DNA of 57,651 bases from Elusimicrobiota bacterium. GTDB lineage: Bacteria > Elusimicrobiota > UBA8919. The first letter of the stretch is position 1. Each line of letters starts with the position of its first letter. Both the position numbers and the translations under genes were made by a program. The notes under the pieces are model-generated. The model ran no database searches, was not told the DNA's origin, and saw only the letters and a program-made list of their open reading frames with translations. Below are positions 2,792 through 41,939 of the stretch, piece by piece. Location: positions 1-57,651 of the forward strand of contig JBFLWK010000011.1 of NCBI GenBank assembly GCA_040757695.1, written 5' to 3'.

Positions 2792-4369
2792 CTATTCACT
2801 TAAAAATGATTCGGGAAAAATATTGCCTCTGTTTAATATACACTTCGGGTCAAGTAATTTTTTTATTTCAACCATCTGTCTTAATCCGTTTCTTCCATAC
2901 ATTACTTCCAAATATGGGATTTTGATTTTGCCAACACCGTGCTCGGCAGATATTGTGCCACCTAATGAAACCGCCTTCTTAGCAAAATCTAAATGAAGTT
3001 CTTTTGCCTGTTCAAATTCTTCAGTGTTTCTTGGTAAGATATTCATATGTAGATGACTTTCGCCGATGTGTCCGAAAAGTGTGTATATAAAACCTGACGG
3101 GACTAATTTTGATTTGTAATACTCAATCATTTCCAGTAATTTATTTTCAGGCACTGCAATATCTGCAGAAATTTTATGTAGTGCTGGGTAATTTCTTTTA
3201 TTTCTGGCAATTGTTTCATTTATACCTTCGGGTAAGGCGTGTCTCATCGCTCTGATTTTTAATTTGTCTTTTTCTTCAAGTGCAGCAAGCGCGGTATCTA
3301 TTGACGATTTATTATTTACAAGCAGTTTATCAAGTGTAGTTGAAATTTGGTCAAGTGTTTCGTCGGTATATTCCAATTCTAAAAAAATGGCTGCATTTGT
3401 TTTTTGAGGAAAATCAGGCACAGCCAAGTTTACGCCTTCATCTTGTTTTTTTTCTCGTAAAATGTTCAAGCCACCTGAATCAAAATACTCAAAAACGAGT
3501 GCCGATGTAAGCATTTGCTTACATTTGAAAAAAAAGTTTAGTGCATTCTGTTCTTCAGGAAAAAAGGCAATGATTGACATTATATTTTCAGGTTTTTTTG
3601 TCAGTGCGACTTCTACTTCTGTAATTACTCCGAGTGTGCCTTCAGAACCAATAAAAAGATCTATCAAGTCCATTTCAGGTTTTGCATAATAGCCCGACGC
3701 ATTTTTTACATCAGGCATTTTATAGGTTGGTATTTTAACAACAACTCTTTCCTCATTGCTAAATACAATTTCAAGTTGATTATTCTCAGCAAAAATTTTG
3801 CCACGCTCAATTTCAAGCACTTCGCCGTTTGAAAGAACAACTCTCAACGATCTTATCCATTTTCTTGTCGGACCGTATTTAAAACTTCTTTCTCCAGATG
3901 CATTTGTAGAAACTGTTCCGCCAATACGTGCGCTTGTTTCAGTAACATCTACTGGATAAAAACAACCGCCTGTAATACTTTGGCTTTCCTTGTGAAGATT
4001 CTCCAGCACAACACCTGCCTGACATTTAACCCATATTTCGTCACCGACATATCTATGTCCAAGTATTTTATCCATTTTTTCAACTGTCAGAAGCGCACCT
4101 GATTTCGGTATAGCACCACCAACAACACCAGTTCTGCCGTTAGAGATTGTAACTGGTATATTTTTTTCAGACATATTTTTCAAAAAATCAGATACCTGTT
4201 TTTCCGTCTCTGCAAATACTAAATACTGAATCTCTCCTGCTGAAAGTTTAGACTCGTCTTGCAGATAAACGAAGTAACCTTCCAAAATTTTTTCCTTCCC
4301 TTCAATAATCTGCATCGGCTTTTGTTGGGCTGTGTCCTGTCTCAGTTTAATTGCGGATATCTTATTCAT
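2792..4369 (-). CDS. GlcD-type FAD-linked oxidase (lactate/glycolate dehydrogenase family)
   Basis: Oxidises a 2-hydroxy acid such as D-lactate or glycolate with FAD. The FAD-binding (PCMH) domain spans about residues 60-260, with VSTNASGERSFKYGPTR and GSEGTLGVITEVEV. The C-terminal oxidase domain contains FGHIGESHLHMNILP and the closing AEHGVGK signature. At 525 residues it is longer than GlcD (about 460-480), mainly at the N-terminus. The LarA-type racemase gene lies 12 bases upstream and ends just before this start, so the pair could make D-lactate and oxidise it to pyruvate. A palindrome lies inside the reading frame at 3506-3523. Substrate is not fixed by sequence. Confidence 0.9.
   Translation of the reverse strand: MNKISAIKLRQDTAQQKPMQIIEGKEKILEGYFVYLQDESKLSAGEIQYLVFAETEKQVSDFLKNMSEKNIPVTISNGRTGVVGGAIPKSGALLTVEKMDKILGHRYVGDEIWVKCQAGVVLENLHKESQSITGGCFYPVDVTETSARIGGTVSTNASGERSFKYGPTRKWIRSLRVVLSNGEVLEIERGKIFAENNQLEIVFSNEERVVVKIPTYKMPDVKNASGYYAKPEMDLIDLFIGSEGTLGVITEVEVALTKKPENIMSIIAFFPEEQNALNFFFKCKQMLTSALVFEYFDSGGLNILREKKQDEGVNLAVPDFPQKTNAAIFLELEYTDETLDQISTTLDKLLVNNKSSIDTALAALEEKDKLKIRAMRHALPEGINETIARNKRNYPALHKISADIAVPENKLLEMIEYYKSKLVPSGFIYTLFGHIGESHLHMNILPRNTEEFEQAKELHLDFAKKAVSLGGTISAEHGVGKIKIPYLEVMYGRNGLRQMVEIKKLLDPKCILNRGNIFPESFLSE
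3506..3523. repeat. Palindrome inside the FAD dehydrogenase reading frame
   Basis: TGTAAGCA and TGCTTACA flank a TT centre: 8-bp perfect arms with a 2-base centre, the same design as the intergenic palindromes. It is read in frame and encodes KCKQM in the oxidase domain. It does not interrupt the protein. Confidence 0.7.
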
Positions 4370-4381
4370 AAAGTATGTTCC

Positions 4382-5788
4382 CTATTCCAACGGCTTAACC
4401 AGATATCCCGGGTTGTTCAGCACAGTAATTGTTTTGTTTTGTAGATATTTTTGAACCCATGTGTTGAGTCGTTCCTGCGGTGATTGAGTATTTTTTCCCC
4501 AGAATAGAAACGGTAAAAGATGATAATCGCTTTCAGGGATGCCATCTTGTATAATATGCAAATTACCCCAGCCGAGATAATTCAGTATTTGGAAAATGTC
4601 AACCGGTTTCTGTTTACCGATTTTGTAATCCGCACTTACAACCTCAACGACTTTTGTTAGCGCTTTTTTGATTCTATTCGCTTCGCTCACCCTACATTTA
4701 TCATCGTGTTTATTTAATTCATCCATCCCGATTTTCATCAGATTTTTGAACTCCTCATTACCCCAACTCTGATTACAGGGTGCGACTACTAATATCGTCC
4801 CGCCTTTTTTTACCGCTCTATATGCTGCGTGGGTTGCTTTACCCATCTGATAGAGATTCACACCCCATGCACTTGCGCCAGCAATAATAATATCCGCCTG
4901 TTTTTCAGTATAAACCGTCCATACATTTTTCAGCACCTCTGCGGCACGACGATGCGCTTCAAACAGTTCGCCGCCTTCTAAATAAACCAAATCGTCTTCA
5001 GTATCTATGATTGATACGATTGTATAGACCTGTTTTCCCTGCTTTCGCAGTGATTCCAAAATTGTTTTAACAATTCTTACTTTTGTCTCAAAAACAGGAT
5101 TTTTATCCATAATTCCAAGCCCGACATTTTTAGCAAAACCTTCAGGCCCGAACATTTGCAAGTGCTCATATCTGATGGTATCCATATCACATACACCAGG
5201 ACAGAATGATTTTGGACCACCTGCGACACCAGCGAAATAATGGTTTTCCACATCGGTTAACGGGATTATTATGTCAGAATTATACACCACTGAATCAATT
5301 TTTATTTTTTGGCCATTCAGTTCGCCAACCTCAATATTGTTTTCTTTGCATTTATGGATTACATAATTGACTTTGCCGAACATTTGTTCGCCTAAAATTT
5401 TTTTAAGTTCATCATCCGTAGGCGGTCTGTGTGTTCCAGTTGCAATAACAACCTTTATTTTAGTAAGTGGTAAGTGGTAAGTAGTAAGTAGTAAGTCAAC
5501 AAGTATTGGTAGGAGCAGTCGTGTATGAATGTTTGGTCTATCGTGGTCATCGGTAATAATACAAATATCACCATCTTTATAGTTTTCTTTGATAAGAGAA
5601 CTTAATGGTTTCTGTTTGCCAATTGGTTTTTCAAGTGCAGAGAGCAATTTCTCTTTGACATTTTTTATCACAGGTAGTTTTTGTGGAAGAATTAACGGTA
5701 GAAACTTTTTTTCGTCAATCGTTTTTTGTGGAATGAAATCACGGAGAACTTGCGCGCCATAATTTAATACAATCTCATTAGATAACAT
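4382..5788 (-). CDS. larA: LarA-type nickel-dependent lactate racemase homologue
   Basis: Member of the LarA family (DUF2088). Lactobacillus LarA interconverts D- and L-lactate with a nickel-pincer nucleotide cofactor. The LarA residues can be placed: GTHRP with H120, H183 in NHYFAG, K193 in GGPKS (matching the cofactor-binding Lys184) and H209 (matching the Ni ligand His200). The K193 to H209 spacing of 16 equals the LarA spacing. The protein is 468 residues versus about 424. Two repeat-derived stretches add unusual sequence: residues 97-110 (LLLTTYHLPLTK region, from a 7-bp tandem repeat) and about 365-373 (CRVSEANRI). The start overlaps the CoA-transferase stop by 11 bases. No larB, larC or larE is in the window. 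Other LarA-family substrates are possible. Confidence 0.85.
   Translation of the reverse strand: MLSNEIVLNYGAQVLRDFIPQKTIDEKKFLPLILPQKLPVIKNVKEKLLSALEKPIGKQKPLSSLIKENYKDGDICIITDDHDRPNIHTRLLLPILVDLLLTTYHLPLTKIKVVIATGTHRPPTDDELKKILGEQMFGKVNYVIHKCKENNIEVGELNGQKIKIDSVVYNSDIIIPLTDVENHYFAGVAGGPKSFCPGVCDMDTIRYEHLQMFGPEGFAKNVGLGIMDKNPVFETKVRIVKTILESLRKQGKQVYTIVSIIDTEDDLVYLEGGELFEAHRRAAEVLKNVWTVYTEKQADIIIAGASAWGVNLYQMGKATHAAYRAVKKGGTILVVAPCNQSWGNEEFKNLMKIGMDELNKHDDKCRVSEANRIKKALTKVVEVVSADYKIGKQKPVDIFQILNYLGWGNLHIIQDGIPESDYHLLPFLFWGKNTQSPQERLNTWVQKYLQNKTITVLNNPGYLVKPLE
4675..4696. repeat. Dispersed repeat read in frame in larA
   Basis: The sequence around ATTCGCTTCGCTCACC matches the ATTCGCTTCGCTTCACC found between genes at 2659-2675. 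On the coding strand it is read as CRVSEANRI, about residues 365-373 of the racemase homologue. This hydrophilic stretch looks foreign to the family. Confidence 0.7.
5464..5498. repeat. 7-bp tandem repeat (five units) inside larA
   Basis: Plus-strand units are taagtgg, taagtgg, taagtag, taagtag, taagtca. On the coding strand they give the LLLTTYHLPLT peptide. Seven is not a multiple of three, so loss or gain of a unit would shift the reading frame. Confidence 0.85.
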
Positions 5789-39067: not shown

Positions 39068-39454
39068 CTAATCCCGTGGATTCCGTGCGCTCTGTGGCTG
39101 TTCTCCTTTAACAATTTTCACAATACGCCAGACTAACAGGCACAAAAACAGAAGTGCAACAACATTTGTTATCCAACCTTCAAAGATACCCATCTCGTAA
39201 GGATAACCTTCGTAGCCAAAACTAGCAAGTGTTTTAGATGTAAAAATGACACTTAAAAACGGGATTATTTTGCTGACAAGTCCGCCTTTATAGACGAGCA
39301 GCGACCAGAAAAGCCAGTATAGAATTGAAATCCCGAAAAGTGTGAGCACAATCATTGATGCGATGTGCACAGGCTCGTAAATCGGTTCGTCAGGGTTTTC
39401 TTCATCGGAAAAAACATCGCAAAACCACAACCAGATTTTTTTCAGCATAATCAC
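39068..39454 (-). CDS. Small membrane protein, function unknown
   Basis: 128 residues with helices at about 31-53 and 93-112, and an acidic N-terminal part (SDEENPDEPIYEP). I do not recognise the family. Its ATG overlaps the FAH-family stop, so the two are coupled. The tail GEQPQSARNPRD is encoded by a repeat-like sequence (CCGTGGATTCCGTGCGC), so the C-terminus may be a repeat-derived extension. Confidence 0.65.
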   Translation of the reverse strand: MIMLKKIWLWFCDVFSDEENPDEPIYEPVHIASMIVLTLFGISILYWLFWSLLVYKGGLVSKIIPFLSVIFTSKTLASFGYEGYPYEMGIFEGWITNVVALLFLCLLVWRIVKIVKGEQPQSARNPRD

Positions 39455-40080
39455 TCCTTAACGACATAATTCGTAAGTGTGCCAATTTTTTCTATTTTTA
39501 CATCTATTCTATCACCAATTTTAACAGGTCCTACACCAACAGGTGTCCCAGTTGCTATTATATTATATTTTTCAAGTGTCATAATTTTTGAAACAAACGA
39601 GATAAGCTTGGGAATTTTAAAAATTAGATTCTTGGTGTTTGAAGATTGTTTCAATTTTCCATTCAAAAAAAGTTCAATTTTCAGATTATGCGGATTTATG
39701 CCGGAAACGATATGCGGACCCACCGGACAAAAAGTATCAAACGATTTTGCTCGTGTCCACTGCCCGTCTTTTTTCTGCAAATCCCGTGCTGTTACATCAT
39801 TGAAACAGGTATATCCAAGAATATATTTTTTTGCATTTTTCACTGAAACATTTTTGCACTGTTTTCCAATCACAACTGCAAGTTCGGCTTCATAATCAAC
39901 CTGTTTTGCCATTTTCGGATATACAATTTTTTGGTTGTTGAAAATTACTGCCGACGGTGGTTTTAGAAAAATGACTGGCTCAGCGGGAATTCTCATGTTG
40001 AGTTCTTTCGCATGCTCAATATAATTTAGCCCAACTGCAATAATTTTTTCTGGAATTTTTTCAAATTTATAAATTCTCAT
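39451..40080 (-). CDS. Fumarylacetoacetate hydrolase (FAH) family enzyme
   Basis: About 209-residue FAH-domain enzyme. IAVGLNYIEHAKEL, FLKPPSAVIFNNQKIVYP, VDYEAELAVVIGK (metal-binding Glu) and YTCFNDVTARDLQKKDGQWTRAKSFDTFCPVGP are classic. Family members hydrolyse or decarboxylate 3-oxo or hydroxydienoic acids; short ones are often oxaloacetate decarboxylases or tautomerases. I start at ATG 40080. The repeat pair at 40092-40143 lies directly upstream. Confidence 0.88.
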   Translation of the reverse strand: MRIYKFEKIPEKIIAVGLNYIEHAKELNMRIPAEPVIFLKPPSAVIFNNQKIVYPKMAKQVDYEAELAVVIGKQCKNVSVKNAKKYILGYTCFNDVTARDLQKKDGQWTRAKSFDTFCPVGPHIVSGINPHNLKIELFLNGKLKQSSNTKNLIFKIPKLISFVSKIMTLEKYNIIATGTPVGVGPVKIGDRIDVKIEKIGTLTNYVVKE

Positions 40081-40091
40081 TTTATACATTA

Positions 40092-40143
40092 CAGAGCACT
40101 TGCTCTATATGTTTTCTCGTCGGTGTATAGAGCAAGTGCTCTA
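40092..40143. repeat. Bipartite palindrome element B
   Basis: Two 16-base palindromes built on AGAGCA/TGCTCT with 2-base centres (CT and AG), centres exactly 36 bases apart, separated by 20 bases whose reverse complement contains GACGAGAAAA. It lies between the HTH gene ending at 40146 and the FAH-family start. The element at 41657-41708 has the same geometry and core but different stems. Confidence 0.85.
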
Positions 40144-40145
40144 TA

Positions 40146-40379
40146 TTACCGAATTCTTATTTTTAAGCCGCGGGCTACTCGTTTATTACAAGAACCAATT
40201 CTGAATTTTAAATGCCCTTTTTCTTTAAGTTGTCTGATATAGTAATGTGCTGTGTTTCTGGAAGAAAACTTAAAATACTTACATATTTCTCTTTCTGTTG
40301 GTGGAAAACCTCGTTTTTTTATTGAATTATTTATAAAAGAAAGTATTTTCTTTTCTACTTTTGTTAAGTATTTTTCCAT
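40146..40379 (-). CDS. LexA-like winged-helix protein without protease domain (copy 1)
   Basis: About 77 residues matching only the N-terminal DNA-binding domain of LexA: KILSFINNSIKKRGFPPTEREI and SSRNTAHYYIRQLKEKGHLK. The self-cleaving peptidase domain is absent, so RecA-induced cleavage is not possible. The end SCNKRVARGLKI mimics the LexA linker. Start ATG 40379 with AAGG close by. A paralogue lies at 41706-41939. Target sites unknown; see the palindromes beside both genes. Confidence 0.8.
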   Translation of the reverse strand: MEKYLTKVEKKILSFINNSIKKRGFPPTEREICKYFKFSSRNTAHYYIRQLKEKGHLKFRIGSCNKRVARGLKIRIR

Positions 40380-40383
40380 AACC

Positions 40384-40851
40384 TTAAAACTTAACCAACC
40401 AGTTTTCAAAATTGGCAACGATATATTTTTTGCCTTTTTGGATTATTTTATGTCCTTCTTTTTCTAAAAGTTTTTTTTGAGAGACGATACCACCAGGATA
40501 TTTCTCGTTAAGTTCTCCATTTGATTTCAATGTTCGCCAGTAAGGAGTAATATCTTTTTTCCATTGAGCTTTCATTTCTTCAGCAGCATGTGCAGAAATT
40601 TTTGCAAAAATTCCTGTAGTTATTGGACAACCAATCGTAGCATGATGTTTTTTAGCAAGTATTTCGCGAATTTGATTTATTGTAATAAATTTGCCGAACG
40701 GAACTTTATTCATAATCTCATCCACTTCTATTGGTGCAGGAATAACAATTGTGCCATTGCCCCATCTTTTGCTCATTTTTTCTGGAATTTTTACCACTTT
40801 TGGTAAATCTTTAGAGTCATGTAATTTCTCCTGCCAAGTTTTTTTACCCAT
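40384..40851 (-). CDS. MGMT-fold alkyltransferase-like protein
   Basis: 155-residue protein related to the DNA-binding domain of O6-alkylguanine methyltransferases. ITINQIREILAKKHHATIGCPITTGIF and PYWRTLKSNGELNEKYPGGIVSQKKLLEKEG fit this group. The usual PCHR active-site motif is not present in that form (GCPITTG instead), so it may bind damage without transfer. Sits between DapB and an HTH gene. Confidence 0.75.
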   Translation of the reverse strand: MGKKTWQEKLHDSKDLPKVVKIPEKMSKRWGNGTIVIPAPIEVDEIMNKVPFGKFITINQIREILAKKHHATIGCPITTGIFAKISAHAAEEMKAQWKKDITPYWRTLKSNGELNEKYPGGIVSQKKLLEKEGHKIIQKGKKYIVANFENWLVKF

Positions 40852-40861
40852 CTTTGCCTCC

Positions 40862-41635
40862 CTATAATCCTAAAACATCTTGCATACTGTAAAGTCCTGG
40901 TTTTTTGCTGAAAATCCATTTTGCAGCTTTAACCGCCCCTGCGGCGAATGTTTCACGCGAATGCGCACGATGAATTAGTTCTAATCGTTCACCGGATCCA
41001 GCAAAAATTACTGTATGCTCACCGACAATATCACCTGCTCGGACTGCATGAATACCAATTTCTTTTTTTCTTGGACCTGTAATACCGGTTCTTCCATAAA
41101 TTTTTGATAGTTTAAGTTTACCTGAAATAATATCTGCAATTTTTACTGCTGTGCCTGATGGTGCATCCTTTTTTTGGTTATGATGTGCTTCAACTATTTC
41201 TACATCGTAATTTGACAATACACCTGCTACTTCATCAACAAGTTTAAATAAAAGATTCACACCAGCCGACATATTGGGCGAAAAAACTATTGCGCAAGTG
41301 TTTGATACTTCTTTTATTTTTTCAAGACCTTTTTCGGAAATACCGGTAGTTCCAATCACGAAAGCAGGGCAAGACCCTGCCACTACATTTCTTATGGCAA
41401 TTCCCAAATGTTCAAGTGTCGCTTCTGGATTTGTAAAATCAATCACAACATCTGTGTTTTTGATAACAGTTTCTATATTATCTGTAATTTTTATTTTATT
41501 GATCATTTGCTCTATAAAAGGATGCCCTTTTTTTTCTACTGCACCTACAAGTTTTAATTCATTATCAGTAAGAATTCTATCAATTATCATTTTACCCATT
41601 TTTCCACAAGCACCACAAACTGTAAGTTTTAACAT
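40862..41635 (-). CDS. dapB: 4-hydroxy-tetrahydrodipicolinate reductase (DapB)
   Basis: Second enzyme of the diaminopimelate pathway. N-terminal NAD(P) site (VCGACGKMGKMI), VIDFTNPEATLEH, VIGTTGIS, and the substrate motif EAHHNQKKDAPSGTA; GRTGITGPRKKEIGIHAVRAGD near the end. 257 residues. Residues about 84-91 (VVAGSCPA) are encoded by a GCAGGG/CCCTGC palindrome and seem a few residues longer than usual between the helix and VIGTTG. The palindrome element at 41657-41708 is upstream. Confidence 0.93.
   Translation of the reverse strand: MLKLTVCGACGKMGKMIIDRILTDNELKLVGAVEKKGHPFIEQMINKIKITDNIETVIKNTDVVIDFTNPEATLEHLGIAIRNVVAGSCPAFVIGTTGISEKGLEKIKEVSNTCAIVFSPNMSAGVNLLFKLVDEVAGVLSNYDVEIVEAHHNQKKDAPSGTAVKIADIISGKLKLSKIYGRTGITGPRKKEIGIHAVRAGDIVGEHTVIFAGSGERLELIHRAHSRETFAAGAVKAAKWIFSKKPGLYSMQDVLGL
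41364..41380. repeat. Palindrome inside dapB
   Basis: GCAGGG and CCCTGC around CAAGA, read in frame as GSCPA just before the VIGTTG motif. A small in-frame insertion relative to normal DapB is suspected. Confidence 0.65.
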
Positions 41636-41656
41636 AACCTCTCCATCTGAAACTTA

Positions 41657-41708
41657 TAGGACAGATGTCCTAATTAGTGACGACAAAATTTATAGGACAA
41701 ATGTTCTA
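41657..41708. repeat. Bipartite palindrome element A
   Basis: TAGGACA-GA-TGTCCTA and TAGGACA-AA-TGTTCTA, centres exactly 36 bases apart, with a 20-base middle containing GACGACAAAA. Same length and core as the element at 40092-40143 (opposite strand) but with different stems. The second palindrome covers the stop codon of the HTH gene at 41706-41939. Confidence 0.85.
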
Positions 41709-41939
41709 CTTGTGTTTGATTTTTAATCCGCGTGACACTCTTCTATTGCAAGAACCCATCCTGAATTTTAAACAACCTTTTTCTCTAAGTATTTTGATAT
41801 GATAGTGTGCAGTATTCCTTGAAGCAAACTTAAAATATTTTGCTATCTCTCTAACTGTTGGTGGGAATCCTCGCTTTTTTACTGAATTGTTAATAAAAGC
41901 AAGTATTTTCCTTTGCAAATCTGATATTTTATCGTTCAT
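41706..41939 (-). CDS. LexA-like winged-helix protein without protease domain (copy 2)
   Basis: 77 residues: KILAFINNSVKKRGFPPTVREI and ASRNTAHYHIKILREKGCLK. Very close to the copy at 40146-40379, including the recognition region SRNTAHY and the tail SCNRRVSRGLKIK. Lacks the LexA peptidase domain. It starts 4 bases after the permease stop. Likely a DNA-binding regulator of local genes; targets unknown. Confidence 0.82.
   Translation of the reverse strand: MNDKISDLQRKILAFINNSVKKRGFPPTVREIAKYFKFASRNTAHYHIKILREKGCLKFRMGSCNRRVSRGLKIKHK

Follow-up and report, generated by a model that had tools for sequence, protein, structure and literature searches.

The window, the whole 57,651-nucleotide stretch of DNA that was analysed, carries two bipartite palindromic elements, A and B, each at the 3' end of a short LexA-like gene (Table 1). 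This raises the question of what the elements are, and why they share one geometry and one core but carry different stems. In both, two 16 bp palindromes stand 36 bp apart, centre to centre, around a 20 bp core that reads GACGACAAAA on the + strand in element A and GACGAGAAAA on the - strand in element B; the two cores have GACGAnAAAA in common. A single stem is used within each element, and the stem differs between A and B. On these points, as on the coordinates, the preliminary description was accurate. The two 16-base palindromes that it had given each element are also present, but one palindrome of each contains one mismatched pair, which is the outermost pair of the left palindrome in element B and in element A leaves TGTTCT instead of TGTCCT in the right palindrome. 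The two genes had further been called near-identical and placed directly against the elements. Their proteins are only 68% identical; the HTH-A stop codon (41706-41708) does lie inside an element A palindrome, and the HTH-B stop codon (40146-40148) is 3 bp away from that of element B. No palindrome was found upstream of the HTH-A and HTH-B start codons, so that simple promoter autorepression is not obvious. Among relatives, G007 keeps the order HTH-element-FAH with one palindrome decayed. In G007 an HTH gene also follows directly after dapB, unlike in the window, where the gene at 40384-40851 lies in between.

Table 1. Coordinates of the elements, genes and single palindromes in the window.
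Feature	Positions	Strand	Description
Orphan palindrome TAAGCATTTGCTTA	3508-3521		Within a 529-codon open frame
Orphan palindrome CGAACATTTGTTCG	5377-5390		Within a 471-codon open frame
FAH gene	39451-40089	-	Fumarylacetoacetate-hydrolase family, directly downstream of element B; Pfam PF01557, 8.8e-69
Element B	40092-40143	-	Palindrome 40092-40107, core 40108-40127, palindrome 40128-40143; stem AGAGCA..TGCTCT
HTH-B	40146-40379	-	Stand-alone LexA DNA-binding domain; Pfam LexA_DNA_bind, 9.5e-14
Gene between dapB and HTH-B	40384-40851		Weak match to methylguanine-DNA-methyltransferase DNA-binding domain (alkyltransferase-like)
dapB	40862-41635	-	Directly downstream of element A; Pfam DapB_N/DapB_C
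Element A	41657-41708	+	Palindrome 41657-41672, core 41673-41692, palindrome 41693-41708; stem AGGACA..TGTCCT
HTH-A	41706-41939	-	Paralogue of HTH-B; Val29, His45

The short genes, here called mini-LexA, encode a LexA-type winged-helix domain. All six scanned in the 2.89 Mb genome (G000) match Pfam PF01726 (LexA_DNA_bind), and profile comparison matched LexA structures in the PDB down to 4e-11. Beyond the wing the genes continue only a short way, with a basic RxARGLK tail after the DNA-binding domain and no S24 self-cleavage/dimerisation domain. HTH-B itself is 77 amino acids long from its ATG (a TTG start further up is possible), has the tail RVARGLKIR and residues Glu29 and His45, and has a near relative in Elusimicrobia CG06_land_8_20_14_3_00_38_11. 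A search of 340 genomes of the phylum, Elusimicrobiota, found short mini-LexA genes in only five, all from the family of G000. In G053, which belongs to another family, one copy sits within a 444-codon frame, and AGTACAAATGTACG precedes the match by 28 bp (L165, contig C34); the remaining matches lay in longer frames, comparable in length to full-length LexA. Phage records searched with the HTH yielded only distant LexA-like proteins, all below 60% identity. G000 also encodes a separate full-length LexA of 210 codons (L005, C36:3616); upstream of it, TTAGCAAATTTGTGCTA, which overlaps a promoter-like stretch, is possibly a different box used by this LexA itself. Elsewhere in G000 (L006:601-1707, C110), tyrA runs without a stop into a mini-LexA domain, the two sharing an open frame of 368 codons, and two CGAACA palindromes lie just past its stop codon. 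The gene directly after tyrA in G004 is aroA, with no mini-LexA between.

The palindromes of A and B belong to a larger class, NNNNCA-NN-TGNNNN. We surveyed palindromes in 1.24 Mb of G000 stretches and took genome-wide counts from pattern searches. Many stems other than the two first described exist: in the 1.24 Mb, the most over-represented were TAAGCA (24 copies), CGAACA (16) and AGAGCA (14), followed by AGTACA (6), AGGACA and AGAACA (5 each) and AGTCCA (4), against a Markov-model expectation of 0 to 0.2 for each of the seven. Perfect copies were far above background, whereas copies with one to four mismatches were near it. Among sampled genomes, CA..TG palindromes exceeded expectation in G000 (111 versus 40), G006 (22 versus 3) and G002 (24 versus 6), and G001, which is without mini-LexA, showed no excess (8 versus 9 expected). 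The core lies within 40 bp, at fixed distances, of 11 of the 14 AGAGCA, 12 of 22 TAAGCA and 4 of 5 AGGACA sites, compared with 1 of 16 CGAACA sites and a background of 9.8%. Its TCGTC/GACGA begins 7, 10 or 14 bp from the 14 bp palindrome, and the palindromes are flanked by TATA, AATT or AAATG. A longer element was seen at eight loci (L032, L034, L066, L072, L091, L100, L102, L115) and consists of a palindrome, about 40 bp containing CCGACGAGCA, and another palindrome whose stem differs and is often TAAGCA; the AGNNCA stem of the element varies symmetrically while the remainder is kept.

Mini-LexA genes commonly carry such a palindrome at their ends. In a set of 21 genes from six genomes (6 in G000 and 15 in G007, G006, G004, G002 and G053), a class palindrome with at most one mismatch was found at the ends of 19, compared with 8.4% of random positions. 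Perfect palindromes were found at 13 (1.7% of random positions), and seven genes had a class palindrome on both sides (0.2%). They frequently overlap the start or stop codon, and the stem differs between loci. AGTCCA, for example, stands on both sides of the gene at C4:10068, (A)GGACA on both sides of C116:1204 and of its G007 counterpart, and TAAGCA on both sides of G006:C83, while TGGACA occurs three times around G002:C62:179129. At the par locus of G004, G006 and G007, the HTH gene next to parB keeps its position, and its palindrome and recognition helix change together. For TAAGCA, despite its 24 sites, and for AGAACA, G000 offers no obvious cognate mini-LexA.

Across the 21 mini-LexA, with stems assigned by hand from the gene flanks and in some cases from decayed copies (C4a, G7C92, G7C31, G6C62), two stem bases covary with protein residues. 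Guanine at position -3 accompanies Glu29 in five of five cases and none of the 16 proteins without Glu29. Likewise, thymine at -4 accompanies Gln45 in five of five cases and His45 in none of 12. In a scan of all columns, both pairings have the lowest p value that the permutations allow (0.0005). Since each base label changed at least three times on the tree, the covariation was not inherited as a single block. High ranks in the scan also went to columns that do not contact DNA, residues 67 and 71 among them, and shared ancestry therefore contributes part of the signal. Mini-LexA residue 45 aligns with Glu44 of E. coli LexA, which contacts DNA (PMC3091678). The stems CGAACA and AGTACA are identical to the published LexA boxes of B. 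subtilis (CGAACN4GTTCG) and of cyanobacteria (AGTACWNWTGTACT), respectively (PMC3091678). The Gln45/T rule predicts Gln for AGTACA, and cyanobacterial LexA, which carries Gln44 (PMC13416735), agrees.

The preliminary description had offered three readings of A and B: paired operators, an RNA switch or a mobile palindrome unit. The matching palindromes at mini-LexA gene ends and the covariation of protein and stem argue for the first. So do the agreement with published LexA boxes, the excess of CA..TG palindromes in sampled genomes that have mini-LexA, and the gene orders kept in relatives. Judged from sequence, A and B are probably the paired operators of two mini-LexA paralogues with diverged specificity, each binding its own palindrome. 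Each mini-LexA would recognise an NNNNCA-NN-TGNNNN palindrome, presumably with one monomer per half-site, and we assume cooperative binding by these proteins, which are without a dimerisation domain. Binding at the gene's own ends is predicted to throttle the mini-LexA gene itself and also read-through into the next gene, that for the FAH hydrolase at element B and dapB at element A. The two paralogues would have arisen by duplication and then diverged in specificity, Glu29 going with AGAGCA and Val29 with AGGACA.

Complete elements form a family of their own. A pattern for the whole element (16-20-16 bp), in which the variable stem bases were left free, has ten matches in the 2.89 Mb genome, of which nine are exact and one carries one mismatch, and none in the control. 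Same-stem palindrome pairs in the 1.24 Mb sample numbered nine at 36 bp and two at the next-best distance, and a fourth-order Markov shuffle produced none at any distance. The accumulation at 36 bp and the lack of control matches show that the family is not due to chance. The geometry first described at this locus thus recurs elsewhere in the genome, and relatives keep the same spacing, with one exact element in G006 and three in G007. The majority of the ten elements do not adjoin an HTH gene, and two lie in frame within genes that are conserved, one being mnmG and the other of the DHH family. At the element in the DHH-family gene, G004 and G008 are without exactly 12 codons (36 bp), corresponding to palindrome plus core, and at the one in mnmG the orthologues have 6-9 codons fewer. 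Three 52 bp copies (L022, L024 and L025, on G000 C6, C14 and C18) remain alike for about 55 bp more on the downstream side, so the unit also occurs in a longer form. Since the 20 bp GACGA core does not change with the stem, it may be read by a factor common to all copies. Palindrome and core would constitute a 36 bp unit that could be added beside an existing palindrome-like site, and bare palindromes might also arise in place within genes.

The dispersed palindromes lie mostly away from promoters, with no promoter bias, at gene junctions and in housekeeping genes. Those in ligA, deoB, tyrA, rtcB and trpE occur singly and without length change relative to orthologues, some of which are near-fits (tyrA of G004 is one base off), and this suggests strong selection or drive on DNA sites in conserved genes. 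We considered a gradual, point-by-point build-up: near-matches at background level make tolerant selection unlikely, yet single palindromes within genes are present without insertion. Closely spaced CGAACA copies also occur. In G000 (L119:9730-9799, C26), three CGAACA palindromes 28 bp apart lie in frame in a linker of a MiaB/MtaB-like gene, about 17 residues longer than its G004 equivalent, and in G006 (L189:6556-6621, C3), four tandem CGAACA palindromes spaced 17-18 bp apart lie in a 789-codon frame.

Beyond operators, mini-LexA might represent a transposase-free, self-spreading class, in which a lone LexA-type domain is the sole gene, its own palindrome marks the ends, copies, either bare or as 36 bp units of palindrome and core, accumulate because of the protein, and drift in specificity gives rise to new, incompatible families; we regard this as possible but doubtful. 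A second alternative treats the palindromes as mobile repeats of REP type, which a transposase or recombinase encoded elsewhere in the genome would spread, the HTH protein being a passenger or a repressor of spread. The great excess of perfect copies over chance, with imperfect ones near background, the DHH-family unit exactly 36 bp longer than its orthologues and the three copies with shared downstream sequence would all fit, and G000 has six Y1 transposase genes (L285-L290). None of the six loci, however, is flanked by palindromes of the CA..TG class. One of them (L288, C2:58378) has CCGACT..AGTCGG and CCCACT..AGTGGG palindromes on both sides; these belong to a different family, NNNACT..AGTNNN, and the locus is likely a RAYT/REP set whose stems vary, distinct from the mini-LexA palindromes. 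Mobilisation of the mini-LexA class by a RAYT was rejected accordingly, the Y1 loci carrying other palindromes or none. The bare palindromes within genes, which show no length change, also speak against REP-like spread, and a passenger HTH would not be expected to covary with the stem. We therefore consider this alternative unlikely. Of the mobile palindrome unit of the preliminary description, what stands is the dispersal of palindromes and a single case of a palindrome-core unit missing from the orthologous gene in relatives.

A third possibility is that mini-LexA proteins are chromosome organisers or transcription roadblocks, like MatP, Noc or phage stoperator repressors, with the sites inside genes as their main function. 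All 16 sampled CGAACA sites lie inside genes, as expected of gene-blind placement and odd for ordinary operators, which counts against the paired-operator reading. Such a role would also agree with in-gene sites arising without length change from orthologues that are often already close, with the strict perfect-copy pattern, and with the HTH gene adjoining parB in three relatives. Against it, several specificities coexist within one genome, TAAGCA sites avoid genes (5 of 24 inside), and regional clustering, in a fragmented genome, lends no support. We consider an organiser or roadblock role rather improbable as the main function; it is compatible with the binding part of the paired-operator explanation.

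An RNA reading, in which two hairpins or one long mRNA hairpin act as a switch or terminator, is very improbable. The palindromes could pair, and element B is located just 5' of a start codon. However, relative to transcription the cores of A and B run in opposite directions, the centre dinucleotides of the two palindromes are complementary in only 2 of the 10 elements, a two-base centre is unfavourable for RNA hairpins, and the stems track residues of a DNA-binding protein. Equally remote is the idea that stem symmetry is a mutational by-product of template switching in quasi-palindromes, copying changes from arm to arm, which would account for symmetric changes within one palindrome and between neighbours but fails on the association with HTH genes, the residue covariation and the same stem at many unlinked sites, and is already largely refuted by these dispersed identical stems.

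If paired operators are the correct reading and the predicted binding holds, the genomes contain a natural library of more than 12 related winged-helix proteins, each genome-tagged with its own operator, and a recognition code (residue 29 with -3, residue 45 with -4) that would be directly readable and testable. The system also bears on how palindromic repeats without a transposase spread and persist. We found no earlier description of a mini-LexA/palindrome system in the open-licence literature.

The closest known system is LexA and the SOS box. The DNA-binding domain family and palindrome geometry are the same, two stems are identical, and Gln44 goes with AGTAC; the 14-16 bp palindromic box is of the Gram-positive or cyanobacterial type (CGAACA, AGTACA). 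Mini-LexA differs in having no protease/dimerisation domain, and hence no SOS cleavage, and in that a single genome contains several paralogues whose boxes differ. Its sites lie at its own gene ends and inside genes rather than at the promoters of SOS genes. Because both the protease domain and SOS placement fail, we do not file mini-LexA as a LexA repressor.

RAYT/REP systems ('REPtrons'; PMC3116915) and REPINs resemble the present one in that a gene is flanked by its own palindrome, with many dispersed copies, doublets of fixed spacing and copies within genes. Here, however, the gene encodes a LexA-type DNA-binding domain and not a Y1 (HUH) transposase, and REP-like genome-wide dispersal is tied to a repressor-type protein; the RAYT that G000 does have is separate and comes with palindromes of another kind, and the foot of the stem carries TATA, AATT or AAATG in place of a GTAG tag. 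CGTC-tagged REPs, including Rickettsia RPE-4/-6 and Neisseria dRS3, are likewise short palindromes with CGTC nearby, some of them in genes, and have no dedicated transposase. Their stem of 8-9 bp has a loop of 4-5 nt, CGTC immediately at its foot and a CCA tail (PMC3733652), whereas here CGTC is at least 4 bp from the stem, the centre is 2 bp, there is no CCA tail, and a cognate HTH gene is present. Mycobacteriophage stoperators, finally, share the many dispersed repressor sites and the divergence of repressor and site together. They are phage-borne and asymmetric, and most of them face the same way with respect to transcription (PMC6550527), in contrast to the symmetric sites of mini-LexA.
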